From Mya arenaria (Eukaryota > Mollusca > Bivalvia > Myida > Myidae): a stretch of DNA of 64,000 nt. The stretch lies in the NCBI RefSeq assembly GCF_026914265.1, contig NC_069124.1, positions 13,413,088 through 13,477,087 on the forward strand, read 5' to 3'. Under the pieces are notes generated by a model, which was not told where the DNA came from, did no database searches, and saw only the letters and a list, made by a program, of their open reading frames with translations. Below, piece after piece: positions 27,001-54,404 of this stretch. The position numbers were made by a program, and so were the translations under genes. Within the stretch, counting starts at the first letter, position 1; the number at the start of each line of letters is the position of its first letter.

Positions 27001-27205
27001 TAGGTTATTTAACATTGTTCTGTACCATACGAATATATATTTGGACGACTAGCGGCTTGTCCAATATGACTTTCCAAATGTGTTCAATTCCTAATGTATT
27101 TCGTATTATACTGAACAATGCTAAATGACTTTTTATTCTATACCTATAAATATACTCCCAAATATAATCTGTATTGTACATAAAAATAATGATAATAATC
27201 TTAAA

Positions 27206-27258
<53 letters not shown>

Positions 27259-27271
27259 TAAAGATTATACT

Positions 27272-27319
<48 letters not shown>

Positions 27320-30300
27320 TTAGTAATAATAATAAAAATAATAATTATAATAAAATTATTGATCCGGTAATAACAGAAGCTTTATCGTAACGCTTTATCT
27401 AGAGCGTCTGTTGATTCGGATTTTCATTCGGAACCTTTTCACGGGTTTTGGTCTTCATCATAGGTTTAACATGGAACCCGTGATTCGTATAATACGGAAA
27501 AAAATGGGATTTTTGTACGCGCGTGCGTCCCAATACGGAAATATATTGTACGGCCACGTGGTTCCAAATAGCGAGTACGATTGGACGTATAAATTTGTAG
27601 AATAATACACTGTAGTTCATGACAAAGTATTTCCTGTACTCTTTTGATAATACGGTCTCTAAACCGAGCGAAGCTCGGCAGAGCCCTATTTAGGCTACAT
27701 GCATGTGCGTATACACTTTCTTTCAGAAGTGCAATGACTATGAGCCTGAAAAAAAGACGTAAAGGTGATGGAACCAGTTTTTTTTGTTAATAAACCGTAT
27801 TGAGCGCATGAATGCCGAACGTCAAAGTTTTATCAGAGCGTGACGACATTGTGTTCGGTAGTTTTCGTGATCGCATAATCGGCCGATTTCATGAAGAATA
27901 CGTTCACACGAAAATTAAATCTACGAGATGCGAAATAGCGCCCCAGTAGTTATCAAAATAGTTCAAAGTATGCTTATAAGCAATTACTTTGAATACTGTC
28001 ATATTTCTTTAGGTAGCTGGATATATATATTTTGTATTCACTTTAACATTAAAGATATTCATACTCATTGCTGACCATTCTAAACAAAGGTCGCTATCCA
28101 GTAGTTGTCATTATGGATTTTACAATACTATTTAAATGTTTGACAGTTGTTAATCGAGTAGAAATTGCCAAGAATTTATCCCTGTTTGATTACCGATTTA
28201 ATCACGACCATGGACTACACCGGTACACATAGCATAGCGTGTCACGTACATGCAACAGGTATGATTTTTTGTAAAAACACCATCAGTAAATGAACGTATC
28301 AATTTCATAAACATATGACATGCAGTTGACCAGTTCAGAAATCGCTGGGCTGATTGAGATATTGTCACTGAAAAGATGGATGGGAGGTCTGAGAGCCACA
28401 CCCATAGATAAATTATAACTCAGATTAAAGGATGGGAAAACAACTTTCAATCATCAACACGGCTGATAGAGAGGTTTAAACTAAAACGATATACTGGAAT
28501 GGTGTGGCAGGAAACTCTTCTGCAATGCAACACCAATTTTGTTTGACATGTTGTTTTTAAATTAAGAAGTTTGACGGGGATGGTGCGGGAGGGATATCCC
28601 CTCCTGCCAAGCGAAACTGTGGCGAAGAGCGAGATTATGGCTAAAACGATAAAAGGACGGTAACGTTGCGGTCTGACACCATAGGTTTGTGAGTGATTGT
28701 GACTATAAAGATTAATGGTTTTGCTTTGATCCACAGATTGTGTGAAAGATTGTAAATTAATAGTGCGGAGGGATGACCCCGCTTGCCAAGCATCACTATG
28801 GCGGATGACAGATTGTGACTGAATATGTTGGTAGGGAGCTAGCGAGCTGACACCATGTATGTGTGAGAAATTGTACAAAGAATATGGACGGGGAGGGTTT
28901 TCCGTATTGCCATGCAATACCGTGATTGTGTGACAGAGTTTAACTCAAAAGTTGGCTGAGGAGGGGTGTTCCCTCATGCCAAGAACAATATGGCTGAGTG
29001 AGAAATTGTGACTGAAAAAAGTGATACGGTGAGTGTGGAACAAAATCATGGTCATTTTAGTTATTCTGAAAATAACGATGTACAAGAAGATGTTAATACT
29101 TGTCAACAAACAGCTTGGCTGAGATATTAGAATTAAAAACATTGATGGGAATGGTGTGGCAGGGTTGTCCTGCCAAACAACACGTGTCAGTGTATCAAAA
29201 AGTAACTTAAAGGTTGGATTGAGAGGGTGCGGGAGAGGCCTCCCCTCCTGCAAAGCGAAACCATGGTGGAGTGCGAGATTGTGATTGAAAGATGAATGGG
29301 CGGTTGCATGCCAATGGTGTTTTTTTGGGCCATAGATTGTGTGAAATATTGTAACTAAATAGTCTGTCCAGGGTGTTGGAGGGCGACCGATTCCGCCAAA
29401 CACCACGCTGAATGAAGGTTGCGACTTAAACCATGAACGGGACGGGTTGTTCCCTTTCCAAGAAACAACATGACTTAGTGAGAGAATAAAGTCCGCTTAA
29501 TGTACATGTGCACCTGTATCTAATTAAAATGTGCACCTCTATATTTATACGTGAAATTCTAAATACAGAGTCGCTCCTTTCTGTTACATTTTTAAAAGGA
29601 AGGTGCACATCTTTCATAAATACAACTGCACTTCTATATCATAAATGGAGGTGCACCTCTATATTTAGACCGGCATGTCTTTCCTTGGACCTGCACCTTA
29701 AAACATAAGGTGCAACTCTATTTTTTCAACTTACATCGCCGTTTATCGACTTTTCACTAAAATGCTAAGTCAAACTGTACTGGCTTGTTCATACTCAATC
29801 TCATGGTCAAATTTGTTATAAATAGCCATTGAGTCAAAGTTCCTGCTTGTTTATTAAGTAAAAAAGTATAAATGAGATGACACAGATACCATTGCCGAAT
29901 GAACGAATGTAAATGTTATTCAAATTATGTAATCTGATGTATCCTTTGCATTTTTTCCTTAAAATAGTTTACTTTGGCAATTGCAGGGAGGGAGGTTTTG
30001 AGTGGTTGACTGTAAAGACCATCTGTATTTCCGAACACATCCATGCCATCTGGTTTTGACATTACAACTGTGGACTGATGTTCAGCAACGCAGGTATTGC
30101 CATGTTATGTTAAACTGGAAGCAATAGGTTTGAAAATAAACCGGACATTTGTCAAGTTTTCCCTGAAATAAAGTCAGAGAGGCTTCCTAACATAGCCAGT
30201 TGCCATTATGTTACTTGCTCTTTGATATTTACATTCGCCTATTATGACTTCATTGTTTATTTCAATATTGTGCTCCGATTGGATAAGCGTCACGTCATTT

Positions 30301-33300
30301 AACAAATGATGTACGAGGTTGCAAATATCAGCTATTCTTTTATACCATCGTATGCTATCTGTTACATCTCTTTAAGATCAAATGCTCAATCTTGAAGATA
30401 CTGCCATTTTTAAATTGTAATAATTAATTATCTAAAATGTAAATGTAAGTATTGATCGTAATTATTCCTGCAGTTATGCTTTATGAACGCAGTTCCTCAA
30501 GCGAGCAAATGACCAAGAAGCTCTAGCGAGTTTTTTTAGGAATTTGCTGGCGTGCCCTACTGCGTTAATACAGCATAAACACATTTTTTATTCAAATGGG
30601 ACTGTTTTCAAGTGAAAAGCCAGGTCAGTGTCTATATGAAACAGTGTTTGATATAGAAAGAGCTTTTGGAGGGGTGGCATACTTTAATTTTTTATAAATT
30701 CTAAATTTATGTAGATTTCTGGTTGAAATTTGGCCAGTTGACAGTTCTTAATCATAAAATATTGGTGTTTCGGTATGAAATTTGAAAATATTCTATGACA
30801 TAATATAAATCAATAATTTAAAATTTTCTTATATAGTTTTGACATTTTAAAAAAAACCCACCTACTTTTACTTTCAAATTGTAAGTATACCAAAGGCTGG
30901 TACCTAATGAAAGAAAGCCTCACTTTCAATTCTAAAGTATAAATGGAGGGATTTTAAAATATTAACAACATAAGTTTGCTCAATGAAAAAGCACGGCCAA
31001 ATGCCAACAGGCAAATTGACGCGGCATATGGTTAGGTACTCTCACGAACGGTCCAATAAGGTAAGGGGTTGTCCATTCCAGGTTTCCTGATGGCAGGTGA
31101 CATAGGTAACATGTTCACAGGTTGCTGTACTGGAATCATCTCAACATTTTGGCTTAATCGCACCTGTCTTGAGACATTTTTGGTCGGTGTGGAACACTTA
31201 AATGTTGAACCCAGCAATTTAACCAGGTATGCCAGATATGTGTTACTTGAGTCTGTTGTTTAGGCTTTAAGGGCGTCGATGATTGTATGTTTGTGTAGTT
31301 GTTGGTATTGTTTTATTTTCCATTTTTTATTTTTTTAAACAGGCCCAGAATGAAATGATGAAAACCAGCCAGCCCACCCGCCCGCAAAGCTGCCCATCCG
31401 GCCAAGCTGTACCTGTTGTACGCCAACTTGCTAACATGCGGTGATTTGTTAGTACTTCCAGATCATATAATGGAAAATTATATCCAAACTGAAGCGTAAT
31501 GTGAGTCAGTTTGGTCATATACGGATAATGTTTGTTTTATTATTAAATGAATTTCTTTCATGCTTTTTGTCAATCGTTTCTGGTGCGGCTATGACATAAT
31601 ATAATTTTCTAATGAAACTGCTGACTTCTATTTGTCTTTAGTCTGTAGTGTGCATCTATTCGCACATTTTGATTGTTCATTTTAGCAAAATTATATTAAT
31701 TGCAAATTCTTTAAGCAATAAAAAAAAACCTTACTACACATAATATGCAGATTGTTTCATTGAGCGAGCATATGATTTTCAGATTATGGACAAAAATACA
31801 TCACCTTCAACAATCACAGCAACTCAGTGAGATCCCGATTTTGAAAAAAAAAATATTGCTAGCTTTCATTAATTCATTAATTCATACTATCAATCATTCA
31901 TTTATATTCATTAATTCATTCATTTATTCAGTTTATTCATTGAAAAACTTGCCATTTCAAGGCAAATGAAATAAAAAGTGAGCCGGTTTCATTAAAATTA
32001 GAGCCTTTTCCCTTCATGCATTAAAGAAAAAACATAAATATACTCAAAATTCCATAAAAACACGAATTTATTGTTTCTACGGTCAGCCTGGTTGCTGTAG
32101 CCACGGAGGTATTTTCAAGGACAAGAACCAATGCTGGTAAAACGTGGTCTTGTGATGGAATTCCATACCGGTTCTCGGCAAGGATTTTCTAGAATGGAAT
32201 ACCGTCTTCAAGTAAGAAGGAATTCTAAGCATGTCTGGTTTTAACGCTTTCATAAAGCATCTGGGTACTCAGTTAGTTGAGATTAACCTTTGAGTTGTTA
32301 AAAACTGATTGCAAAATGTCCAAAAGACTATATATTTCATAACTTTTGTCCTGAAAATCTTTGAATTCATGAACTTTTCTGCATATTTAACAAATTTATG
32401 ACTACATCAAAGGTTGTGCGTGTCTCGAATGACTGTTTTTCATTCTTTAACAGTAGAAGCATTGCTTTTGTATTTTTACGTTTATTATTATTGGTTTTAT
32501 TGATAAGTTTCCTCAAGTTAATGCATACTTTGATAAGATTTACCTTTTGCATTATATCTTTATTAAGGATTGTTGGAATAAGAGTGAGGTTTGTGCACAT
32601 AAACTGGTTTAAACCCCCCAATAAATTTACATTTTACGGACCGTTATAGGCGGTACCTAACAACTCTTGATAAACATACATATTTGTTATATATATAGTA
32701 TGTACGCACTGTGCTGTTCGTGGAGTTTTTTGCTGTTCTTGTATGTTTCTTGTTTGTGATTTAGTGTTCTATGTCTTTGACGTTTGCCCAGTGCCACTAA
32801 ACCGGGTTTATGTGTAAACCTTTAGCTACTGAGCTTGTTTCTGTAGTATTTTGCATAAATATTGCTTGCAGATTATAATGTGCCAAAAAGCTACAGTTAG
32901 CTGCGGCTCACCCCTCCCCCCTCGGTAGTAGTCCTGCAATCTGAATCAGGAGGTGCAGTTCGGAATCCAACATTTCAGAAGAATGAAGATGTTAGTCAAC
33001 TCTGTAGTACTTGTCTGTGTGTAAATCTTTCAAAACAGTGAGATTTATGGCAAATCAATTAAAATTAAGCAACGTATAGGCAATGGTAATGGGTTATACT
33101 CTTAAATCTATGCCATATTTAGCCATCCAAACAGATACTTAATGTAAAATATAAATGGTTTAATAATGTTATATATGCATTTTCTACATCATGTAGCCGA
33201 CCCCCTTATGAATACACTAGCAGTTATTATAAATCTTTCATTTTTGATTGTTTCTTTGCCATTTCTTTTGTTGCGGAGGCGATCAGTTTGGCATATAGTG

Positions 33301-36300
33301 GTGTTTAGGCTGTCTATAATCACAAGATCACTAAACAAAATTGTTAACCTGAACAGTTCTGTTACCTTTGTATAGAAGTGGACCAAAAAAGCATAAATTG
33401 ACAAGTTGAAGCATTTCCATTTGGGTCTATGTCATTTTGTATATAAACACTAAAGTGATAAATTGGAAAAAATCTTTATTTTGCTTAGAAAAAAAACTTA
33501 AAGAGTTGGCAGGTCATTTTTGAAAGCTACAATAAAAACTTTACTTGGTCATTTATTTTAATGCATATGGAAATAATGGCTCTTAAAAGGTTTGCGGCTT
33601 ACCTTTGGATGGGAATTGCTATTCCTGCTTGTAATGAAAATACCACAGTTGCTGATACTTGTCTCATTCTTTAATTGTTTAATATATCATTGCCAAACTT
33701 TCAGTATGTGTTGCATATAGCCTGAAATTGAACTATAGTAGTTTTGAATTCTGTTTTTGCAAAACTAGTATACGCAAAAACTGTTTTGAAGTTAGTTAGC
33801 CAGGTTAGTGTTTATATGAACTATTAAGTAAAAAAAACTGTGGTCTTAGGCCAAATTTACATATTTTTAACAAAGATGACTTCATATGTTGGTGTGATAG
33901 CCTCTTCATCTATGTCAATGTAAACAAATTGTGTATTACTTCATTTGTGTGTTAATCTGTTTCAGATCGGGAACCATCACTTCAGTACCGTATTCACCAG
34001 TAACGTTTAAAGCAGGATATCAGATTGATCACTTCAATACCGATTCACCAGTAACGTTTTATCCAGGATACCAGAGTGTCATCTGGGATTGATCACTTTA
34101 GTACCGTATTCACCAGTAACGTTTTATCCAGGATATCAGAGTGGCATCTGAGACTGATAACTTCAGTACCGTATTCACCAGTAATCTTCAGTTTGCAGTT
34201 ATGCTTATTTATTATAAATTAATGAAAACAAGTTTTTAAACATCGGGTGCAAATGATATGTGTCAGTATTATATAATAACCATGTCTTGTTTTTGTACAA
34301 TATCTTCTTCAGCTGATAAACCATGTCCTGATTCCATTATAATTCCATCTTTTATCGATATATGTTGAATTTTTATATGTATAAGTTATTGAATGTTTAT
34401 TTTTGAGAAAGTCGTAAAAAAATAATGTAAAGGCACTGTATATAATGCTGGAAATAACATGAGTTAGCCTAGTAAGTTCTAAAAATAAAGTGTATATGCA
34501 CACAACAGTTCATCTTGCATTGCTATCTCAAAGGATATAGTATTTAACTGAATGAGCTAATGTTATCATAATTAAAGTGCATTCTTGTTCTGATTATGTT
34601 GCGAACTGTAGTCTGCTAAACTGAATATATTACAATTTTACAACATATTAATATAGTTATCATATATTAATATCAATAACTTATGTTTCATGGATAACTC
34701 TATGTATTTTTTTTAAATGTTATAGATGTATTTTGGTTTAATGTTTTTTTTAACGGTTACAATTCTTATATTTTAAATATTTCAATGTGTTTATACTTTT
34801 TTCATACATTGTTATATTCAATGATTGAATGGCGCTAACAACGTCAACTACAGGGGACTTATATTCATTTCAAACTGCTGAGTGTGTCAAACAACTTTTC
34901 CGGGTTATTTGCAAAAGCTTAAAAATCTAAAATATACACAATGTTGTTTTACGTATTAGGATTGTTACGTACAGGTTGCTTGTCAGATAATTGTAGAATC
35001 TATGATAATTGAATTTAAGTAAATGCAATCTGTTTTATTTACAGTGTTGTGTTTAAAGTAGGAATCATTATCTTGTACTATCACGTGCTTGTATGATATA
35101 CAGTATTGGGTAAACTAGTGTATGTAGTGTGTTTGTTTTAATGTATAAATATTCAATTTCTTTTGCATTGCCTTAACCTTACTTGTAATCAAATACGATT
35201 ACCGATATTTATGAAAAACACGAAAAAAGGAGAGAATGAAAAGGTTTCTTCGTTTCTTTGCGAGCATTTACCCTTGCACACAAACGATACAATCGTTTAT
35301 CTCCCCAACGATAATACATTTATTACTTGGGACATCAGGAAGGCGAAAGTCAAATTGATGATTTCTTTATTGGATTAGGATTTAATCCTACCGAAAAGGT
35401 GGGTCCAGCCATTGTAGCGTATCAGTCTACGCAAAGAAAACCCTACTTTAAACGAGGACATGAAGGCATAGGTTCTGATAAGTTATTCTACATCTTCATG
35501 AAAATTCTCAATAAAACTGGCTTGGAAAACATTGCAACTGTAGGACCGGTAGTCATTGATCAAACACCGCCTTTAAATCGAACTCTTCCGCCAGTTACTA
35601 TGGACAATATATACATTGTTTTTGGTTGGAATAGCAACACATTCTATGACGATGAGCAGACTGCACAAATCGATCAAATATATTTCCAGGTCGGTAGGTA
35701 TACTTTTTTTCTAACCGAGTGTTTTAACAATTGAAGTGTGCAAATCAGCATCGTATTTAGCCGCATGTTTTACTTACTGTACTGTAGTTTGATTCTAGTT
35801 TACAGCACATAACGGTATTGCCGCAACAGCTTATTTGGAATGGCGTCTAGATACATCTACCCCGTGCCCTTTGTACTCTGGTTGATGCTTTACGTATCCA
35901 CTTCGCCGTTTTCAGCTACATAAGACGTACAATAACCTCGAGTTTTACATGAATATGCATGTGTACAACAATGCCGGTGATTATCTAGCTGTAGTAAGCC
36001 AATCCTTTCAGCATCAAGATATCCTCCAAGACAAACTGTCATATTTGATATAGATCCCTCAGTAAATAACAGTATTGTGGACGTTGACGCTCACTTTACA
36101 AAGAAGGTGCTCTGTGGAAGATGGATACAGTCCATACACAACGGTAATTTAGTTTTGAAAGTAGGTGCTGGACTATCAAATACGACTGATGATATAGTAA
36201 ATTTCAAATCGTAAGCAACAACAACTCGTATTGTCTACACTCTAGTGATATTCGAACGAATGTCAGATACTTTTTCTTGCTAAAGTCATCCCGCAACGGT

Positions 36301-39300
36301 GTATTTTCAATTTCTTATTCTGATGTTGTAATGGTTTTAGACAATGAAGATATAATGTGTTCACTATCAGTCAGTTTTGGATATGACACCGTGAGTCCAG
36401 TAGCAAATACATATGACGTAGTATTATCGAACAACTCAGCGCGTGTGAAGGTCAATGAATCGCTGCACGTTGGTAAACGTTACATAATTAACATTCCATA
36501 TAAAGTTGATGTAACGTCAGACGATGGAATTGTCACTACAGAGGGTATTGAAACGTTTATTCGACCATTTGTTAATAAACCGGCACTTGCTATACACGTT
36601 GAAAATACAACCAATGTCCGTGAGCATTTAAGTATTCAAGTATCGTTGTGCCCTGTACCGAACGTTCTTTTTCATTCCAAACGGCTTGTTGTTAGCTGGA
36701 AGTTTATCGACCATCACCTTGGTTTTCTTTACATATAGTGTTGGCATAAGTGAAACAAAATCAATGGCAGGACAGAATAAAAAAGTATGTTGTACCTTTC
36801 CAATCGCGTATCGACAGCAACCATTTCGTTTTGGAAGAGTATAAGTTTTTACCCTACAAAGAGTATATTGCTGAAGTACGGGTCTGTTCTAAGCTGGAAT
36901 GCATAGATCCGATACAATCAAATGTGTTCTTTATTGAACGGCAAAATTCAGTTTTGCAGATAACTGAAGCATCTTCATTTGTTGGATATACGTCTGTCCG
37001 TCTCATAATACATTGGTCAATTGAGGACAAGGATATCGGTATGGCATTTTATCAATGGACTTTAGCTCAGGATGCAGAGGGTCGAAATACCCTTATCTCT
37101 TGGAAATCTATTGCTAATAATTCTACTGATATAAAGGTAAAAATAAGGTGTTGTTCTATTAGAATATAATTGACATTATATGATATGTAAATGGACATAA
37201 CTTTTGAACAACCTACATATAAATGTTTTTAAAATTGACCTTATACACAACAATTATTGGTTGTATTTCTACTGCCCGTCCACGGTCATGTTTCTTTATA
37301 TGCTTGTGTTAAAGCATACTCCGTCAGTTGACAATTAATGTAAAAAGCTTACGAAGATGAACATTGGAACTTACGACGCTAATGTAGTTTAAGACTTTGA
37401 TACTGAATCGGAATCTTGGACGCAAATTAAATCGGTAAAAAGTTCATTTTTTAATTGTAAACCAACTAAATAATGAAAATAAATATATTACATACATAAT
37501 TTCTTTTACTAATTCAAAGTTCGGATGTTGGAGACAAAATAACGTTTCTACATGACAATGAATTTGATTTTGGAACAATAATATTATGTCCAGCCGCGGC
37601 GGTTTTGCACGCGTATGAGCGTAACGTTACATTTTATTTGATGACATCACGACGTGTACCAAATGATTGCGACACAGAGGTAGCGTGTTTACAAGAAAAA
37701 GTCACATCGGATGGTTTTGTTGTTTTTGACGAAAGTAACGTGTTTCTTCACACAACATTCTATTTTTGTTCCCTTTTAAACACGACACTTGTTGAGAGGG
37801 AATGGTTTAATGAAACATTTGAGGAATTTCGGTATTGCAGTGACGGATTTATTTTTGACAACACTGCTCCAATCCCTGTTGGACAAATTAATGTCCAAAA
37901 CTCCAATGGGTATATAACAGACATCGAACATGTTGTTATCACATGGGACCCGTTCCATGAAGAAACAGGGGCTACTCTTATTGGACATCCAGAAGACATA
38001 CAACATTATTCTATCGGCGTTGGTAGGCACAGTATTCTAGTTTCTTGAAACAAAAGACATATGGCCATGATATTACTTACATTATTACAATGTGTCGTGA
38101 AAATGCAGTTTTGAATTGGTTTATTTATATATATATAGGGTGATATACGCATTTCACTTTTTGAATTTGCTTCTTTTAACATTATAGCATTTTATGTTTT
38201 GAATGGAGCATTGGAATTCATAAACAGCCGTATGGTGAAGGGATCTTTGATTTGCAAAACGGATTTCCCTGGGTTGATATAGGTTTGCGGCAAGAATTTG
38301 TTCACTGTCTGCCTGTTAATAGATCTCTTGTGCATGGTAGTCTCTACGACATATACGTTAAAGTTTGGTTTGGGCTAAGTAAATACGCGATATTTACGTC
38401 GGAATCTATTAAAGTCGATCAAACACCTCCGAATGTTCGTAGAGGACGATATATCATTGAAGGCATGGACAATTGTGCAACAGATCTGGACTTCACAGAA
38501 TGGACAGATAAAATATCGGCATTTTGATCCGGGGTCTTTAGTGAGCAACAGAACGAGATACAACAGTATTCGGTTGCTTTAGGAACATCTCAGAACGGTA
38601 AATAAATTAATATATGAGCATGTTTTATATTTGAAGCATGTTTTTTTTTCCCGAAAAACTGTTTATTACATTGACGCTGGAATCTGAAATTAGTAGGTAA
38701 CAAGCTTTATTAATACCAATGTTGATGATTTGCTGTCGTTTCAGTCGATGACGTATTTGCATCTGAGAATATTGGATTGAAAACTACTATTTCCATCGGT
38801 AATCTGACTTTGGAGCACGCTGTTAGATACTATTTTACTGTCACTGCCGTGAATACTGCAGGGCTTTACACTTCGGTATCGTCGGACGGATTTATAATTG
38901 ATACATACAAAATGTTTATGTAGACTCAGTTATTCTCCAAATCAATCGATTCATCACTAGAATTTCAACCGCTTGGAATCATAAACACATTTCTGTATTT
39001 TCATATACTTTCATGTCTTTTGATAGTGTGACCCAAAATATAAGCATCAGTGCTGAAATTGATAATATCAAGAATATCTCAGAAACAATGCATTTACATA
39101 GATGTGAGTCTGTTATTGAAAACACAACAAAAGCTCTTCATGTTCGGCAAATAAGACATGATGCTGTAGCTGTTACTGCTATGGTTCAAGATAAGGAAAG
39201 TGATCTGAAAATGGTATGAAACCGAAATTATAATTATGAAACCGGGAGAAAATTTATCATGCGTACTATGTTCAACCCAACAATACAAAGTATAGAATAT

Positions 39301-41394
39301 AGATCTATTAGAATAACTAGTTTATAATGTAACGTTTTATTACGTTAAATTAGTTGACTCATTTATGGATACATGTTGCATACATCGGGGAGTTTATTTT
39401 CATGGTGTATAGTGTTTGTATGATAATCATTAAGTATGTTATGTTTCCATTTTGAGTTCATTTATAATATTTATTTCAATCACTACTGGTAACGTTCTTA
39501 TATATATATATAATGATTTCATTTCAGGTACAAATTGGTGCCGGTACGACACCTGGAGCGTTTCAAATTCAGCCCCTTACTGCCATTCATGCGGGTATAA
39601 TTAGTGGGATAATAAAGGGCCACTTTTCACATGCGACAAAAATATATACGACAGTTATTGCTGAAAATTATGCTGGTTTGGCATCTGTATTCCAGTCAAC
39701 AGAACCAATTCTTATTGACCACACTTTACCGCTAATCACTGATTTATATGCATCAGCCACGGTAATCCACGTAAATGAGACGGAGGAGATTGTTACAAGA
39801 GTCAAGGTCAATGCAACCTGGAACGTGCATGACGATGAGAGTGATATTAAACATTGTACTTGTTCCGTTGGTAAGTCTAAGACAAAGCATAATATTTAGT
39901 ACATATAGTAATTATAGGTCCTCTACAGAGACAAACGTCAACATTCAATGCTGCAAGAAACGTTTACAGTTTATTATCAATATGCTTTTTACTCTAAGCT
40001 AATGTTTCTGACGACAACACATATACAATTCATACTCGAATTTATATTATTGAGCAGGAATGTTTCCATACAAAGCCAATATACAAGACCAATGGTATGC
40101 AGATAATCAATCATCTTGTGAGTCGACCCTCTTGCAGCTTAAACACGGCGATAAGGTGTACGTCAATATCAAATGTGTAAACAATGTTGAACTTGCGACA
40201 ACAACAACTGTAGCTTCAAATACACTGTCCATCAATTTTACTAAATCAAACGATGTAACTGTTAAAATTATACCTGTTAACGAAGCTCCTTTCAGCACAA
40301 TACCGATTACTGTAGCCCCGACGAAAATACAATCAAACAAATCTTTGGTGCAAATAAGTTGGTCTGAATTCAAACATACATCCGGTATTGACTATTACGA
40401 ATATTGCATATCAGACGAAAGAAATACCATCATAGTAGATTGGACAAATGTACAGTTGAAGACAGTGGCAAGTGCACATGGACTTATTCTAAACAATGCA
40501 GAGAAAATGAACGTAAGCGTCAGAGCAACAAACACTGGGCAGTATACAAGTGAGGCCGTCAATGCTTCTTTATTCACTATAAGCGAACCTTCAGCATTGT
40601 CAGGTTAGACGATAGAGTTCAGCAATTTCAGAGCAAGTTAATGTTCATTTTATTGAATGGTCCATTTTATGTTGTAACGGACTGGAATAAACTTGGTTAA
40701 AACTATTATATTGTTCGAACGCATTGATGGTAAAAATTAAATTTTACTCTGAATAGGGTTGTAATTTAACTGTCTTGATGTGTACTTATACATGTAAAAA
40801 TGGCATAAATACTATTTTAAGGAAGAGGTTAAAGAAAGAATAGTCGTACGAAATCAATGTGAACTTATTTAGCAGTCATCTTATAAGTATCCTTCTTAAT
40901 GAAAAACGAAATATTTTCATACAAAATTAAACTTGAAATGTGTTTATACTAATACTCAGGTGACAACTACCATTTCTTGGACTATCTTCGTTTGTGATAG
41001 GTTTTACATTTCCTATGATAGGTGTCTATTAAAGCAAGTTATTGTATTACTTGAAATAATGTAAATCTATTATATATATTTATTAAAATCAATTCTTATC
41101 GTTATTTCAGGAAACCCAATGCTTGTATCTCGAAACGGGCATATTATTCACATCGATTGGAAACCAGCATTCTTTACAATTCCGGACTTTCCAGTTGTTT
41201 ATAGCCTCATTGTGGGATCAAGAAAAGGATTCACCGACATTCTGGACATTAACTATTACACTGGACATACATATGATATTGCGGCTCCGTCGTCTACTCT
41301 AATTTCACCGAATATAACCGAGCTGTTCTTTACTGTAACTTGTACTTATCCAACAGGGATTTGGAGCGTTTACAGGACATCTTTCATAATGTGA
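17864..41394 (+). CDS. Large modular extracellular protein (TSP1 + Cys-rich + Fn3-like repeats)
   Basis: This is the gene model over all exons listed separately below; the 5' end is missing. Domain order is a thrombospondin type 1 module, two short Cys-rich modules, an EGF-like CxCxxGF segment, and about a dozen repeats of 90-110 residues. Each repeat has a conserved Trp, an acidic 'E/D-S-x-I' turn, a Y-x-x-G/VG strand and a closing 'V-D-x-T-P-P'-type linker. This is the layout of Fn3/Ig-like beta-sandwich arrays, so a secreted or surface adhesion/recognition role is inferred. Many N-x-S/T sites support an extracellular location. No membrane segment is visible before the stop at 41392-41394. 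Exons at 17,864-26,940 and 39,528-41,394 are clean; those at 35.2-38.95 kb are frame-damaged. I cannot give a family name. Confidence 0.7.
18080..18718. other. Intron with MITE family 2 copy
   Basis: Intron between the TSP1 exon and the next Cys-rich exon. It contains the MITE at 18295-18510. Confidence 0.7.
18295..18510 (+). mobile_element. MITE family 2, copy 2
   Basis: It begins TTAAAGATGCACTCTTATTC and shares ordered blocks with the inverted copy at 12925-13133. The right end is less clear than the left. It lies inside an intron in sense orientation. Confidence 0.65.
18719..18850 (+). CDS. Exon 2 in window: Cys-rich module
   Basis: Borders are ACACAG/ and /GTGAGA; both phases match neighbours. 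The 44-residue peptide includes CNLNYNIPHCPKNKLQCGG and RCELCNDPYYAAGYGNGC, with eight Cys at spacings typical of small disulphide-bonded EGF-like or furin-like modules. Confidence 0.8.
18851..23204. other. 4.35-kb intron
   Basis: No exon is seen. A degenerate tandem array occupies about 21340-21900. The 105-codon frame at 22193-22510 has no acceptor/donor support or domain and is not called. Confidence 0.6.
21340..21900. repeat. Degenerate ~58-bp tandem array
   Basis: Roughly nine or ten units recur, each with a 'CTGGGCC-AAATGCTGCGGTTACGTATAAGTCCGGAAATCT'-like layout. The anchor words are ACGTATTA/TATGTAT followed by TCCGGAAATCT. Units are diverged, so the array is old. Confidence 0.75.
23205..23330 (+). 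CDS. Exon 3 in window: Cys-rich module
   Basis: Borders are TTCAAG/ and /GTAAGT, phase 1 on both sides. Forty-two residues with CPSSIHQCKYRRC and YCKKCYEDN show the same paired-Cys pattern as the preceding exon, suggesting a duplicated module. Confidence 0.8.
23485..23895 (+). CDS. Exon 4 in window: EGF-like start, then beta-rich segment
   Basis: Borders are AAATAG/ and /GTATGA. It starts MCSWNNHFCWPGRCG with CQCASGF, an EGF-like C-x-C-x-x-G-F signature, and then about 100 residues without strong signature but with strand-like alternation (SHINFKMVASYHITL). It is joined in phase 1 to both neighbours. The exon introduces the beta-rich part of the protein. Confidence 0.8.
23896..25132. other. 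1.24-kb intron
   Basis: No exon. At about 24160-24390 there is a repeat-like patch of 'TATAACGAAA' words around a T15 tract. Confidence 0.6.
25133..25262 (+). CDS. Exon 5 in window
   Basis: Borders are TTAAAG/ and /GTTAGT; it starts in phase 1 and ends in phase 2, matching the next exon. It encodes 43 residues (FTTLTTHKQFTDYHQSQMVE followed by a charged helix-like segment). No domain is recognised by itself. Confidence 0.7.
25459..26617 (+). CDS. Exon 6 in window: first Fn3-like repeats
   Basis: This 1.16-kb exon (TTATAG/ to /GTAAGC) has 386 open codons, the longest clean coding stretch of the gene. It contains CYRYDSQPPEHC, then a repeat with ASKIESYEVRVNEVMPSNG, strands such as LYCITLEVKDVADNVRQC, another repeat with VCLSWKDYFYN, and a linker VFIDRSAPHLNNVSLEKDG opening a third. 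The 'K-V-x-A-x-D/N-x-x-G' strand is the Fn3-like E-F region. Many N-x-T/S sites are present. Confidence 0.85.
26712..26940 (+). CDS. Exon 7 in window: Fn3-like repeat
   Basis: Borders are TTTCAG/ and /GTGAGT, phase 0 in and phase 1 out. The peptide runs from CYCPDIGDCAFF through YYFTIKVTNMAGLSTTEH to a linker FLVHDSLPSEGVVYEG. 'F-T-I-K-V-x-N-x-A-G-L' is the same strand motif as in later repeats. Confidence 0.85.
27185..27348. repeat. (AAT)n microsatellite
   Basis: About 160 bases of AAT trinucleotides with a short interruption near 27255-27275. Translated frames here are poly-Asn artefacts. Confidence 0.95.
27650..29480 (+). mobile_element. Tandem-core interspersed element, copy 1
   Basis: The leading part, 27650-28370, is followed by about 1.1 kb of degenerate tandem units. 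Each contains a word like 'CCTGCCAAGCGAAACCATGG-GAGTGAGAGATTGTGACTGAAA' (units recognisable near 28600, 28790, 28960, 29130, 29250). A second, inverted copy lies at 46800-47770, with matching blocks on both sides. The layout (unique head, tandem core, no coding capacity) recalls Helentron-type or 'pearl' non-autonomous elements described in bivalves; family assignment is inference. Frames at 28447-29406 on the minus strand are not genes. Confidence 0.65.
29505..29735. repeat. GTGCACCT-rich repeat cluster
   Basis: The words AGGTGCACCTCTATATTTA or close variants occur four or five times in about 230 bases, in both orientations because AGGTGCACCT is its own complement. Confidence 0.65.
30473..30580. 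repeat. Imperfect palindrome, 108 bp
   Basis: Arms GTTATGCTTTATGAACGCAGT and its imperfect complement at 30559-30580 enclose a second, inner pairing (GCGAGCAAAT with ATTTGCTGGC). It could form a cruciform or be a very small MITE. Confidence 0.55.
32690..32850 (+). repeat. Dispersed repeat with copy at 45.67 kb, copy 1
   Basis: Shares with 45670-45840, in the same orientation, GCACTGTGCTGTT, GTTCTATGTC, GGTTTATGT and AGCTTGTTTCTGTAG-type blocks. It is probably the tail of a common interspersed element. Confidence 0.65.
33978..34190. repeat. Short tandem array, ~52-65-bp units
   Basis: Four units, each with CACTTCAGTACCGTATTCAC followed by CAGTAACGTTT and GGATATCAGAGTG. Anchor spacing is about 51, 65 and 65 bases. 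Confidence 0.8.
35244..35693 (+). CDS. Exon 8: Fn3-like repeat, frame-damaged
   Basis: Repeat signatures are clear: FITWD (Trp strand), EGESQIDDFFIGLG, then FYIFMKILNKTGLENIATVG and the linker VVIDQTPPLN, ending YFQVG at a GTAGGT donor in phase 1. The Trp strand and the EGESQ segment are in different frames, so one frame change lies near 35,340. No convincing acceptor is visible at the left side; the start given here is a weak AAG. The exon is either decaying or mis-assembled. Confidence 0.65.
35916..37147 (+). CDS. Exon 9: several Fn3-like repeats, multiple frame changes
   Basis: Coding character is continuous but jumps frame. LHKTYNNLEFYMNMHVYNNA comes first, then RYPPRQTVIFDIDPSVNN, then a long segment with MCSLSVSFGYDTVSP and RYIINIPYKVDV, a Trp strand VSWKFIDHH followed in another frame by TYSVGISET, and finally VRLIIHWSIEDKDIG with FYQWTLAQDAEG. 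Frame changes fall near 36,010, 36,205, 36,715 and 36,770, some at A or T runs. A donor at 37148 (GTGTTG) gives the phase needed by exon 10, while a stronger-looking GTAAAA at 37136 does not. Confidence 0.65.
37520..38022 (+). CDS. Exon 10: Fn3-like repeat, clean
   Basis: Borders are TCAAAG/ and /GTAGGC; 167 open codons. It includes FLHDNEFDFGTIILCP, Cys pairs (NDCDTEVAC), CSDGFIFDNTAPIPVG as linker, VVITWDPFHEETG as Trp strand, and HYSIGVG at the donor. The N-E-T and N-T-T sites suggest glycosylation. Overlapping minus-strand frames are shadows. Confidence 0.8.
38188..38597 (+). CDS. Exon 11: Fn3-like repeat with in-frame TGA
   Basis: After an ATTATAG acceptor the coding frame reads FEWSIGIHKQPYGEGIFDLQ, YDIYVKVWFGLSKYA, the linker IKVDQTPPNVRRG, and then DFTEWTDKISAF. 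It is followed by TGA (38526-38528), and SGVFSEQQNEIQQYSVALG continues in the same frame. Other repeats have Trp just before 'S/G-x-F', so TGA replaces an expected TGG. The frame also does not match the phase left by exon 10. The exon ends at GTAAAT in phase 1, which does fit exon 12. Confidence 0.65.
38745..39213 (+). CDS. Exon 12: Fn3-like repeat, one frame change
   Basis: TTTCAG/ acceptor in phase 1; FASENIGLKTTISIGNLTLE and RYYFTVTAVNTAGLYTSVSS, then linker FIIDT. Near 38,915-38,925, at an A4 run, the frame changes and continues as VYVDSVILQINRF, STAWNHKHISVFSYTF and on to a /GTATGA donor in phase 0. This is the last damaged exon. Confidence 0.65.
39528..39870 (+). CDS. Exon 13: Fn3-like repeat, clean
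   Basis: TTTCAG/ to /GTAAGT. It reads VQIGAGTTPGAFQIQPLT, YTTVIAENYAGLASVFQS, linker ILIDHTLPLITD, then VNATWNVHDDESDIKHC and CSVG at the donor. 'W-N-V-H-D-D-E-S-D-I' is the best-preserved version of the Trp/acidic-turn motif in the gene. Confidence 0.85.
40058..40603 (+). CDS. Exon 14: two Fn3-like repeat halves, clean
   Basis: GAGCAG/ to /GTTAGA, phase 1 on both sides. It contains VYVNIKCVNNVELATTTT, linker KIIPVNEAPFSTIP, VQISWSEFKHTSGIDYYEYC, and VSVRATNTGQYTSEAVNAS. The order of strands follows the other repeats. Confidence 0.85.
41111..41394 (+). CDS. Exon 15: last exon in window, with stop
   Basis: TTTCAG/ acceptor in phase 1; 94 codons ending at TGA. It includes IIHIDWKPAFFTIPDFPVVY and LFFTVTCTYPTGIWSVYRTS. 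It ends within or just after a repeat with no hydrophobic anchor, so the protein is either secreted or this model misses a terminal exon. Confidence 0.75.
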
Positions 41395-48285: not shown

Positions 48286-49610
48286 CTAGAAGTAATCAGA
48301 TCCTGCCACTGTGCTTTTGAAGTCCTGATGAACTCGCGCTCTCTCGTGGTCGTGAAGATCACTGTCAACCCTTGTTGAAAAGCCCAAATCAGGTATGAGG
48401 TGTTTCTCTAGTGAAAACAAGGCTTGTGTAAGAGAATCGTTTGGTATGTTTCTGAATAGATCAAACCTCAGTTTAGGAGAAGGCAGCAGTGGGTATCCCG
48501 GGAGCATTGTTTCAATTACGTTGTTATCGGAAAAAAATAAGTGAGGCAGGCGCTTTTCCATCAGAGCTACGCGAATGATGTCTATGAAATAGAGCAGCGC
48601 TATTTGCACACCATCCACTTCAAAATGTGGGTATTTGTGGCAGAGATAGTTGAGAAGGTAAAAGGCCAACTGTTTGAGATGGTAGGATTTTAGCACTGAT
48701 ACAATCTGTGGAGGAGAGCCACCAGATTCTTTAGCATACTTCTTCGTTTTCACGAAATAGGTTTTCAATATTCTGAGCGCGGTCAGAATATACAGTTTCC
48801 TTTCATTTTCACGAGCTACATCTAGTATGTGTTTCTCGTACCCGGTAGATTTTACAACCCAAATGCGGCTTTGGTCTGCAGTTTTGAGGGCCTTGAAGCT
48901 ATTGTCTTCTGCCCATTTACACACTGCGTGAATTGGACATTGCATCAGTACACCTTCATAGCTTGTAGTTGTGTCATATCGTAGCAGAAAGGCAGGAACA
49001 AAATCTAAGTCAATCTCTTTGTCTTTAAGATGTCCAATGCCGAAAAATTGTTCAGACGCTTTTAATGTTATGGTTAGATTGATTGAAGGAGGATTCATTT
49101 TTCTTTTCAAAGCAAACATGCATTTGTTCGTATATATGATATTGTGTATAAGCATCTGTGAATTTATTTTGAAAACAGCCGAATCTACCATTGATTCGAA
49201 GATCTGCACGTGAAGATGTTTAGAGCTTAGGAAGATCTTTCCTTCTTTTTCTATAAATACTCCTTTCTTGTACAGCATCGTGAACTTGTTTCTTATTAAT
49301 TCGAGTGTTACATCTCGCAGTTCTAAATAGCAATAGCCCGGAATAAACTTCCTTTCATCCCTATCTATGAAATGTATTTGTTCAATTCGCTCGTCGAGCC
49401 CGTCAAAGTGAAATTCAAGCATTGCGTCAAATTCGTCTGCTTTAACAACTTTCAATCCCTCTCGAGAACTGCCCTGCCGTACGTACGAGTTGATAAGGAG
49501 ACCCTCATATTTTTCAGCCTGACTGCGCAGTTCTTTTTTAAGTAAATCCATCACCTTATCAACTACTTGTCGAGACTCGAACCAGTCCCTATCGTCAACT
49601 TCCATGTCTC
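48286..49610 (-). CDS. Exon 3 of Mab-21-like gene: catalytic core
   Basis: It follows CTTTTTCAG and holds 441 codons including the stop (TAG, 48288-48286). The first two bases complete a Gly codon, then comes Asp, then the Met at 49605 that a single-exon reading would use as start. The conserved GSSREG, ADEFD and DFVPAF motifs lie in its first 200 codons. The Mab-21 C-terminal helices follow, with a short, polar tail. Confidence 0.9.
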
Positions 49611-52600
49611 CTGAAAAAGTTTAAAATCTGCAGTAATGCACAACGATGAAGTTCAGGGAACGCAAATTTTAAAACCGAAATGGTTAAAAAATAAACTAAT
49701 ATTTCACGGATCATTAATTTAGGATCTCACACAAGCTGTCATTTAATATAAGATTTTATTAAACGATTTCATAATATTTAGAATTTTCTTAGTGTTCATG
49801 GATTTCCGCAACGTGCCGACGATTACTGCGAAGCCTTACTTTACACTGCATGTGTGTTGATGTTAAAAAAGCTCCACCAAGAATGTTTCCAGAGAACATG
49901 ATGTTCTAGCCGTCATGGGATGTGTAATGAGAAATCTGTGCTGCGGAATTCGTATTTGTGTTTTTGGTAACCGACAGCTGATTAAACTGGCAAGCAAATG
50001 ACATTGATTGCATATTGCCTGTGTTTGTCAAGATGGAGATGTTTGAAATGTTTCCGTGTTTTTTTGTCACTAGTGTGGCAGCCTGTTTTTGTTGACTGGC
50101 TGGATAGTTCTGTGACTAGTGATCTGCATTATCTAGTTTGCGGGGCATTGTTATCAGAAAGTTTTCGAACAAGATGCTTTCTGGCTCTATGATTCGTTAG
50201 CCACTTGTCTCCCGGAAGTCCTATAGCTTCATTATTTAGGTAGGTAAATATTTGTTCGCGTTTAAACCATTTTTTACAAACAATGCGGAGGGATATCTAG
50301 GTCGCGTGTGATAAGTCTAGGCAATAGAAATGTCTGATATGTTATCTTACACATGTGTAAGATAAATATATTCGTAATCGGTATATTACACGGACAAGGG
50401 TAAGCATGTGACTACTCATTATGAAAAAAAGAAACATTTATGAAGGCTAATATATATATGTTAACAAACAGGTGCTGGTTTGTTTTATCATAAAATTGAA
50501 ATGAGTTAAACATAGCAATGCATTAAAATAAAACAAATGCATCAACACATACTGTACCCTATTAATAATTCGGTAAAAAAACGGTTCAATTAATCCCGGT
50601 GATAAAGATGGTTGATATTTCAGTGCAACTTTGTTATACTCATATTTTCATAAAGACAATCGTACACACAATCTTTCGTTTTTTATGTTAGAATATTCAG
50701 TTTTACCATAAACTTTTGTTAACAACACAATAAAGCTTCCGTCAAGCTTCCGTCAATTCAAAGATATCCGTGCCTCGAATGCTATTTATATGTTTACGTG
50801 TTAATTCAGTAGATTTTTAGTTCCATATTGGTATGTTGAGGAAGTTAAAAGGATAGTCCAAAGATACAAAACCAGCCTTTATATATATAGCATAAAGTAT
50901 TCCACTAAAAACTTTTATAATAATGTTTCTTATGAAATTCGACCCTTCAACACTTCCTTCACATCGCACATTACTAATATATATGGTATATCATAATTAT
51001 AAGAGTAAATATCGGATCATCATTGAAACGGTTACTTACCCACGAATGACGAACACATGAGCTTCACCTTCCAGTCCAGGTTGTTTCTTCCGTATATCGT
51101 GATAGGTGTTTGCCATTCGTTCTGGTATCTACCAACGGGTAGGTTCCTCTCGGCAAGTATAAATTCTTTCCCTTGCACCTCGGAATATGACACATCCCTA
51201 TGTGGCTTGATATTTTCTATTTTGAACTTGCTCGTGACGTAGTGTACTCCTGGCTCATACTCGAAATATTCCTCAGTATGGGCCCTAAGGGCATGCTTTG
51301 AAATAGAAAAATATGTGCTTCTATTTATTTAAAGACACAATAATTTATCTGGGATGTGAATATATTGAATTTTGAAAAATACAAATGTCATTTTTCGACG
51401 AAATTGTTTACTTTGTTTAATTCGAAGTTTTTGTTGTTGCTTTTTTCTGTTGTTTTGTTTTGGAATCACTAAAGTGATCCTTTTTTATAAGATCACATAA
51501 ATCATGAAAAGGACGAATAATGATCAAGAACATCATAACATACAACTATTTCATCTTAAAACAATGCATATATGCGAGATACATATAACTTAAAAAATAA
51601 TGATTGAATTATAAAACGGTCGGCAATTAATAATGCCGATAAGAATTTGAAATAGTGTATTCACACCTCTCTTTAACAAAATCTTAATTTGTTTTTGGCT
51701 GACTCTTTTGGTCTTTCGGCAATGGCCATTTTAAAGTTCACGATATTTCTCTTTCCATTTATTAAAAATATAAACCTATTGTTGTTTTGGACATCGCCAG
51801 AAAAGTGACAAATGTGGCTCCAAAATGTCCCGTTGGACAGACAGCCATATGAATTTGGGAAGTTATACATGTAGCATACAGCATCTATCATATTTTATGA
51901 CGGCCTTTGTTATTTGCTAAAAAGAAAAGATTAAACGTTAAGATGATATTTCATCGTAAGAAGAAGTGGATGCCAATCCGTTTCTGTTGTACTACTTTGA
52001 GATGAGATTGTTGGGCATTATGTATGTATGTATGTATGTGAACACTTTTCTTATTGTGAGAATATTTTTTGCCAGGAATCAAAGTTTAAATTAGATCATA
52101 CAATACAAATGGATTTCAATCATTTTTATGTTATCAAAAATAAGAAAAAAATAACAAGTACTAGATAAGTTTTAGGTGAATGGCGTTTACCGTATTTAAA
52201 TCCTGGCATCAATTAACAATAGATGCTATTCTCTGGTAGTGTTTAAACTGCGTATAACGTTCAAGTGCTCATGTGTTATAGACCCTTTATTTGACCATAT
52301 GACATAGAATCAAAAGATATCATGTGCTGGCAATTACCAGCTTGCCTTTCAAGTTTGACGTCCCTTGATCTTAGCGTTCTTAAGTCATTGTTCGGAAACA
52401 TTCTTTTAGCTAAAGGTCACTACGATCTTAACCTTTGAACGGCCGATAAAGTTTGTTGTCCCTGTACCCAAGCATTCTTCAGTTATTTAGTGGATATTGT
52501 TTTGTTTTTTTCAAATCACTACAAACTTGATCTGTGACGCACTGACCACACACTCAAAGGATTCATGCGTCTAACTACAACTGCCGAGGGTGCGTATACA

Positions 52601-54404
52601 AGATTAACAATTTATATTCATACTCTTTGTGTAAACACTTATATACTCTATATTTTTCTTTTGCAAATCATTCTTCTATGTTAATTTATTGGCACAAATG
52701 ACCTCAAAATCATGACATTCCGGGAAAAGTTTGATTTTCATGCAACAATTACATAGACAAGAACTGTCGAGGACCACAAGCTCGATTATACGCTTTGTCT
52801 TTGAGATCAACGTATTGATGATGTAATTTGTTTCAGTAAAGGTAACGTATTGATGGCAAATTTAAACAGTCAAGTAGTGGCCATTATTTGTATTGGGTTA
52901 TGTAACCTCAATGTGTTATGGCCGTAAACAATTGTATGAAGAATTAAGTCTAATAAATGAACGGTATTGGACATTTGAGTTCAGAGCCCGAGTTGCTTTT
53001 AAACTTCTATCAAACAGTCTAAAGTCGATCAAGGGCCATAATTTGAGTTTAATTAGTTTAATGGTGATATGGAATTATGTTACGTAAATGTACGATTCCC
53101 GTGAACAGTTATGGGAACTAAAAAAAGCTATTATTTATTTAAAGTAATCGAGATATTATTTAAAATCAAAATCTGCCTTAAATCTTTCAGGTAAGGAAGG
53201 GCATTATTTTTTATTTATGTGTCAAACAGAGGTGTCTTATTTAACTTTGTGTAACCCTTGGGCAACAGTGAGATGCATGAAGTCAATTAAATAAATGGTT
53301 TTGGAGTTCTGAGGTAAACCAAAAGTTATCCTTTAAGTATTTTTCGTTTTTAAGATAAAATGGAGTAATGAAACCTGTGATATCCATGAACATGTATGTA
53401 GTGTTTAATGTCAATTGAATTAAGTGGATGGGACTTTGAAGTGAAAACCCTTCTAGAAATTAAACCAGAAACACAAGGTGCAATAATTTCCTAATTCAAT
53501 CAGTGGCCATTATTTGTTTTAAGGGTTCAATTTACGAACGTGTGAAATGTGCATTGAATTGAATGAATGGTCTTAAAGTAAAACGTATAAGAACCGACTT
53601 GGTTCTAGAGTTTAACCGAACACTTTGTGCCCGGAACGTAAATAAATCCTTAATCAATTAGGGAATTTGATTTGTATTTAGGATGATAAGGAGCTATGTT
53701 ACCTGGTTGTGTGATTGTCCAACTACATGAAGTATAAAGTTAATGAAATGAAATATATTTTTGTTAGAAGTGAAAATGCCAAGTAGCCTTAAGACGTTAA
53801 CAAGACTCTGACGCTGACGCAAACACAGACATCGGGGCAACTAGTATAGCCCTCCTTATTTTTCACATAAATTGTATCAAAATGGCGTCTATTTTCCGAT
53901 TCCGATAAATTGATGAAACCTTCCTCAGATAGTATTTGCGTGTTCATCAATGTTATAAGGTTTTCGATGTGATATATATGTTATGGGATTAGTCACCGAC
54001 TAACGTCATTACCTATAATATAAATTGAATTATTTCGTGTGTGTTTTTCCAGTGCAACAGCACAACGTTGAAAATTCTTACCTATGCGGTACTGTCTAAG
54101 CAGACAAAACAATAACTGATATGAGAAAGCAATATCAATATACAACAATGTACCACTGAATTAGTGATAACATCACAACAAGTATAACAACACATGTACA
54201 GAAACGTGTGATTTATTAAGGTATATCATCGAAAACAATTAACGGCTCGAAATATTGTGAGAATTGAAACAAGTCACAAAATATGTCAGTGGCAAGGATA
54301 GCATAAAGAGTAATACATGTACATTGAATGATAAAATAAAGACGGCAGCTTACCTTTAAAGTGAGATTCGCCTTCCTTATATCTTCATAGGTTACACCAG
54401 ACAT
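48286..54404 (-). CDS. Mab-21/cGAS-like nucleotidyltransferase with N-terminal extension
   Basis: A three-exon model on the minus strand gives 543 residues: exon 54404-54354 (17 codons), exon 51295-51040 (85 codons plus one base) and exon 49610-48286. Phases agree at both junctions. The core shows G-S-S (model residues 149-151), E162-x-D164 in KADEFDAML, and D305 in DLDFVPAF. These are the three metal-binding acids of the cGAS/OAS/Mab-21 nucleotidyltransferase fold. The helical C-terminal half has the SYHLKQLAFYLL helix typical of Mab-21. No Cys/His zinc thumb like that of vertebrate cGAS is visible. Known family members make cyclic di- or oligonucleotides on sensing nucleic acid and signal to STING; for this gene that role is inference. 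Single-exon reading from the ATG at 49605 would give 439 residues without the extension. Confidence 0.85.
49611..51039. other. Intron 2 of Mab-21-like gene
   Basis: AT-rich with no exon-like open frame of note. The 64-codon plus-strand frame at 49998-50192 lacks support. Confidence 0.7.
51040..51295 (-). CDS. Exon 2 of Mab-21-like gene: unrecognised beta-rich extension
   Basis: TTTCAAAG/ acceptor and /GTAAGT donor. It encodes 85 residues beginning HALRAHTEEYFEYEPGVHYV (helix-like) and then strand-like segments FKIENIKPHRDVSY, EFILAERNLPVGRY, TPITIYGRNNLDWKVKLMC. It ends with one base that completes a Gly codon with exon 3. I do not recognise this domain. Coding-like composition contrasts with the AT-rich introns. 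Confidence 0.75.
51673..51891 (-). pseudogene. Orphan exon-like frame in intron 1
   Basis: The frame includes SYGCLSNGTFWSHICHFSG and FIFLINGKRNIVNFKMAIAE. It lies after a good acceptor (CTTTTCTTTTTAG at about 51912), but between that acceptor and the frame the same frame has stops. Another frame would give QITKAVIKYDRCCMLHV and stop. It could be a decayed alternative exon. The IFLINGKRNIVNFKM stretch faintly resembles ITIYGRNNLDWKVKL of exon 2. Confidence 0.3.
52840..53870 (+). mobile_element. ~155-bp-unit tandem interspersed repeat
   Basis: The word GTGGCCATTATTTG or AGGGCCATAATTTG recurs near 52880, 53034, 53197 and 53505, spaced by about 154-163 bases or twice that. Units also share GTTATGTAAC and a GTGCATTGAATTAA-type block. 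The array ends in GGGGCAACTAGTATAGCCCT, which I recall as a common end of a bivalve repeat (memory, unverified). Confidence 0.65.
54354..54404 (-). CDS. Exon 1 of Mab-21-like gene
   Basis: ATG at 54404-54402 opens MSGVTYEDIRKANLTLK, ending in phase 0 at a strong GTAAGC donor. An AG at about 54438-54437, on the 5' side, could be an acceptor for a non-coding leader exon. Confidence 0.7.

Follow-up and report, generated by a model that had tools for sequence, protein, structure and literature searches.

A cGAS-like/Mab-21 gene of Mya arenaria with two upstream exons that most likely encode the N-terminus native to its tandemly expanded subfamily

The window analysed here is a stretch of 64,000 nucleotides of the Mya arenaria genome (C3:13413088-13477087), which carries on its reverse strand a three-exon gene with a Mab-21 core (Table 1). 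An earlier note on this DNA had proposed that two upstream exons join in phase to the core exon. The coordinates and phases are as proposed there, and translation of the spliced model gives an in-phase, stop-free frame of 543 amino acids, 103 of which lie ahead of D104, while the start peptide is one codon shorter than the 18 residues that the note had given it. The beginning of exon 3 is what we take to be the spine helix. Elsewhere in the window, a run of long open frames on the forward strand (23463-40608) looks like the exons of one large extracellular-type protein, in which D-x-T-x-P-like motifs are repeated (VDQTPP, IDQTPP, IDRSAP); a Pfam search with nine of these frames returned nothing above the curated cut-off.

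Table 1. Features of the three-exon gene, with positions counted from the first nucleotide of the window.
Feature	Position	Strand	Remarks
Exon 1	54354..54404	-	17 codons, counted from the ATG start (MSGVTYEDIRKANLTLK); donor GTAAGC; phase 0
Intron 1	51296..54353	-	between exon 1 and exon 2
Exon 2	51040..51295	-	256 nt = 85 codons + one base
Exon 2 splice sites			acceptor TTTCTATTTCAAAG; donor GTAAGTAA
Hypervariable linker	51152..51283	-	44 codons of exon 2
Conserved 38-residue segment	51040..51151	-	last residue completed by exon 3
Intron 2	49611..51039	-	phase 1
Exon 3	48286..49610	-	acceptor AACTTTTTCAG; presumed spine helix, nucleotidyltransferase core, C-terminal part, stop
Pfam Mab-21 match	48823..49461	-	PF03281, 32.3 bits (cut-off 24.1)
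Internal Met codon (residue 105)	49603..49605	-	not a conserved start

The core exon matched 16 further loci in the same genome, with twelve in a cluster at C3:15.73-16.02 Mb (P1 to P12, at 15738, 15746, 15788, 15807, 15874, 15881, 15893, 15908, 15925, 15939, 16004 and 16013 kb, respectively), one on C14 (named C14) and three on C8 (C8a, C8b and C8c). This count is a lower bound, so that there are at least 16 paralogues and, with the window gene, at least 17 members of the subfamily; the C14 core used as a query yielded no additional locus in the genome. The exon-2 segment is found 5' of the core in all 16 paralogues, on three chromosomes, and some of the paralogues that bear it are only 40-43% identical in the core. 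When exon 2 alone served as the query (at E values up to 10), it matched 14 places, namely the window gene, all twelve C3 loci and C8a, each match lying upstream of a core and in the same orientation, with similarity that by itself is weak in BLAST at P2 (E 0.19) and C8a (E 3.9). A profile of the last 38 exon-2 residues, built from 14 members, matched C14, C8b and C8c at 33.9, 44.8 and 47.6 bits; these three were absent from the profile, and their relative C8a was included in it.

Of the 16 paralogues, 12 have a recognisable exon 1, four of these copies being found by DNA and the others by scoring its 17 residues. Eleven of the copies possess an ATG together with a GT donor, and that of C8c is without an in-frame ATG; no exon 1 was found in about 4 kb searched at P3 and C14, or in the 1.5 kb searched at P2 and P7. 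Nine paralogues were joined according to the same model (P1, P4, P5, P6, P9, P10, P12, C8a and C8b), and in all nine the phase-1 end of exon 2 leads in frame into exon 3, the exon-1 donor having been sought at multiples of three only, which imposes phase 0 on it. Seven of the nine joined frames are open over 504-569 residues, six of them ending normally and P10 having a frameshifted tail, and those of P4 and P5 are interrupted. The sequence comparison supports exons 1 and 2 as genuine coding exons, and it is very probable that the extension exists, undergoes translation and is conserved in part. Stops, frameshifts or fragmentation mark eight of the 16 paralogues (P2, P4, P5, P7, P8, P10, P11 and C8c) and part of the family is therefore decaying; the window gene itself is undamaged. 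It should also be noted that C8a and C8b have long C-terminal tails with glutamine-rich runs, which the aligned C3 and C14 cores are without.

All eight subfamily members that were scanned match Pfam Mab-21 at E values up to 1. Pfam Mab-21_C, on the other hand, is weak in three of these eight (best E 0.0064), and the window protein has no match to it. A core profile was made from eight cores picked for their open frames (the window gene, P1, P3, P6, P12, C14, C8a and C8b); in the PDB it matched 7lt2, a Mab-21 domain-containing protein, at E 1.6e-4, cGAS entries at E of about 1e-3 and, through profile positions 308-372, cGAS-like receptor 1 (8gjy) at E 0.0055. QGS and the residues E162, D164 and D305 (ExD and the third Asp) are invariant in the eight aligned cores. 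The cGLR active site is worded as h[QT]GS, X8-20, [DE]h[DE]h, X50-90, h[DE]h in PMC9980059. The window protein fits this motif in its gap of 11 between QGS and E and departs from it in having an Arg before QGS and a last gap of 138, not 50-90; in 7lt2, as counted in its PDB alignment with the core profile, the last gap likewise exceeds 90. Because the motif wording deviates and the C-terminal Pfam domain is weak, we file the window protein as a member of the Mab-21 family that is probably a cGLR. A single-sequence AlphaFold model of exon 3 had a mean pLDDT of 34.4, too poor for a fold search, and a Pfam search of the genome for STING gave no match but was uninformative, as none of 14 controls matched either.

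Comparison of the paralogues divides the extension into three parts, with the 17-residue exon 1 followed by a hypervariable linker and then by a conserved 38-residue segment that adjoins the spine helix. Exon 1 has a common G-V/I-T-x-x-D-I-x-x-A-like pattern. In the 38-residue segment, 11 aligned members share invariant G, N, W, P-I, G, N, W, L, S and G, and its codons, compared pairwise throughout a set of 11 of the 17 members, have a pooled pS of 0.69 and a pooled pN of 0.26; as judged from these values, the conserved part of exon 2 is under purifying selection. The cores of the window gene and P1 differ by dN 0.09 and dS 0.39, and since alignment between the introns of these two genes is limited to short patches and to the neighbourhood of exon 1, conservation follows the exons.

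The linker, by contrast with the segment, is variable in both length and content. In the window gene, 48 residues of exon 2 precede the conserved segment, four of them shared and 44 unshared, and going by exon lengths the corresponding stretch has 58 residues in P1 and P8, 17 in P4 and P10, eight in P5, P6, P9 and P12, and at most two in C8a and C8b. Past its first four residues, no similarity could be detected between the window linker and that of P1 or P8, the alignment score being reached by 384 of 500 shuffles for P1 and by 121 of 500 for P8; with the first four residues included, these numbers are 79 and 5 of 500, respectively. We considered exon 2 as a single 85-residue domain and rejected this, identity to the paralogues being confined to about the last 40 and about the first four residues. 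Repeated QEGY-like units occur in the linkers of both P1 and P8, a hint that linkers may grow by short tandem duplication. The earlier note had described the 85-residue segment as beta-rich; a single-sequence AlphaFold model of exon 2 does contain strands, but with a mean pLDDT of 42.8 it carries no weight.

The earlier note could place the extension in no family, and we too found no relative of it by Pfam search or by PDB profile search. Pfam gave no match to the 103-residue extension, and among 14 exon-2 segments gave two single-member matches (E 0.022 and 0.14) that we take to be chance; no solved structure was found in the PDB with the profile of the extension. The segment was above threshold at none of 13 Mab-21 loci outside the subfamily, which were searched with short flanks (best E 0.058, over nine residues); these 13 are part of the 20 Mab-21 matches that the genome has outside the subfamily, and a distant exon could be missed by such a search. 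Seven of the Mab-21 matches in the genome form a cluster at C4:38260553-38325422 with open frames of 695-811 residues; this cluster is absent among the matches of the window core, and the exon-2 segment was seen in none of the four of its seven loci that were scanned. A viral collection (viral_contigs) yielded no relative when one protein was the query, and gave 98 pattern matches, none confirmed, when the core alignment was the query; a prokaryotic collection (genome_contigs) gave 24 pattern matches, again with none confirmed. These two collections say nothing about other bivalves. Among the titles and abstract openings listed in our literature searches we found none on the N-terminus of this subfamily, which is not proof of absence.

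How the extension should be read depends in the first place on where translation begins. If it began at Met49605, an in-frame Met just within exon 3, exons 1 and 2 would be untranslated or part of something else, and the earlier note rightly warned that this codon would mislead a single-exon gene finder. In the 15 paralogues examined (all except P8), the codon is Met in two, Ile in 12 and Phe in one, whereas the AG|G acceptor of exon 3, upstream of it, sits at the same codon in all 15; we therefore rejected Met49605 as the start. Such a start is also hard to reconcile with an exon-2 frame that is kept in each of the nine joined models and whose changes are mostly synonymous, and we regard it as very improbable. 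The note had further suggested that the extension, with its 85-residue segment from exon 2, could be a sensor module, an independent accessory domain fused to a cGLR and setting ligand choice or location. An extension that is coding, partly conserved and unmatched in known families would suit this proposal, as would a middle part that changes fast between paralogues in the way that a ligand-contacting region might. However, comparison of the paralogues splits the extension in three, and no separate domain was recognised in it by Pfam or PDB search, although a new small domain is conceivable. Conservation covers no more than 38 residues, a stretch that abuts the spine helix and occurs in 16 of 16 paralogues, and the entire N-terminus before the core, taken from exon lengths, measures only about 57-64 residues in six joined paralogues out of nine (72 in two others and 113 in P1). 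Moreover, neither the exon-2 search nor the 13 other Mab-21 loci revealed anything alike in this genome beyond the subfamily. A fused accessory domain is thus an unlikely reading, and a native N-terminus of the subfamily describes the extension better.

A separate question is what drives the divergence of the linker. It might be under diversifying selection, such that tandem copies come to recognise different triggers or partners. Between P1 and P8, the linker has dN 0.58 and dS 0.46, whereas the 38 codons that follow have 0.11 and 0.29, and linker lengths differ greatly among paralogues, as diversification would lead one to expect. Yet this is one pair with a ratio slightly above 1, P8 is itself damaged, and relaxed constraint on a disordered linker fits equally well, so that we think diversifying selection rather improbable.

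Based on these results, we consider it probable, with appreciable room for doubt, that the window holds a three-exon cGAS-like/Mab-21 nucleotidyltransferase gene whose extension is native to its subfamily and whose 38-residue segment is part of the enzyme. The 38-residue stretch is present in every one of the 16 paralogues and therefore looks like the normal N-terminus of the family; the most likely reading is a cGLR-like subfamily that has expanded in tandem and for which the extension is the native N-terminus. In such an enzyme, the segment would pack on the base of the spine helix and on the core, forming part of the fold or of an activation surface; since the AlphaFold models were unusable, this packing is something that we infer. 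The exon-1 peptide and the linker would make up a mobile tail, placed like the N-terminal tail of cGAS, and ligand binding on the core would lead to the synthesis of a cyclic dinucleotide and to signalling through STING. We also entertain, with little confidence, a regulatory clamp in which the 38-residue segment gates the core and the fast-evolving linker ties the conserved peptide to it, with tandem paralogues differing chiefly in the manner or place of their triggering.

A native N-terminus of this kind would have practical consequences. Gene models starting from the core exon, as well as constructs truncated at the spine helix, would miss a conserved segment on which folding or activation may depend, and its loss might partly explain why some recombinant cGLRs appear inactive. 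The contrast between a slowly evolving core and a fast linker also offers a concrete place in which to seek functional differences between the tandem copies.

Among known systems, developmental proteins of the Mab21L1/L2 type have the Pfam Mab-21 fold in common with the window gene. In one Mab-21 search, a locus at C3:14.07 Mb, presumably the Mab21L1/2 copy of this genome, scored 154.7 bits compared with 34 bits for the window gene, and no exon-2 segment was seen at that locus or in its 1.5 kb flanks. The closest solved structure to the core profile of the subfamily is 7lt2, which we take to be the cGLR of the beetle Tribolium, and the likeness (E 1.6e-4) covers the core only. With the animal cGLRs, which have radiated in bivalves, the subfamily shares a Mab-21/cGAS-type core, the full set of catalytic residues and many copies per genome (PMC9980059). 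More than 200 cGLR copies are reported there for some bivalves, and a multi-copy family in a clam is therefore expected; the same paper also puts the fraction of cGLRs without appended domains at 87%. The subfamily departs from these cGLRs in its 38-residue segment, unmatched in Pfam and the PDB, in its hypervariable linker and in a last motif gap that exceeds the quoted spacing. Vertebrate cGAS aligns with the subfamily core in its spine helix and ExD, and its N-terminal tail is placed alike. This tail has about 167 residues in vertebrates and from fewer than 7 to 70 in invertebrates, according to a review (PMC10855445), and the N-terminus described here, with 103 residues in the window gene and 57-113 in the joined paralogues, can be set beside both ranges.
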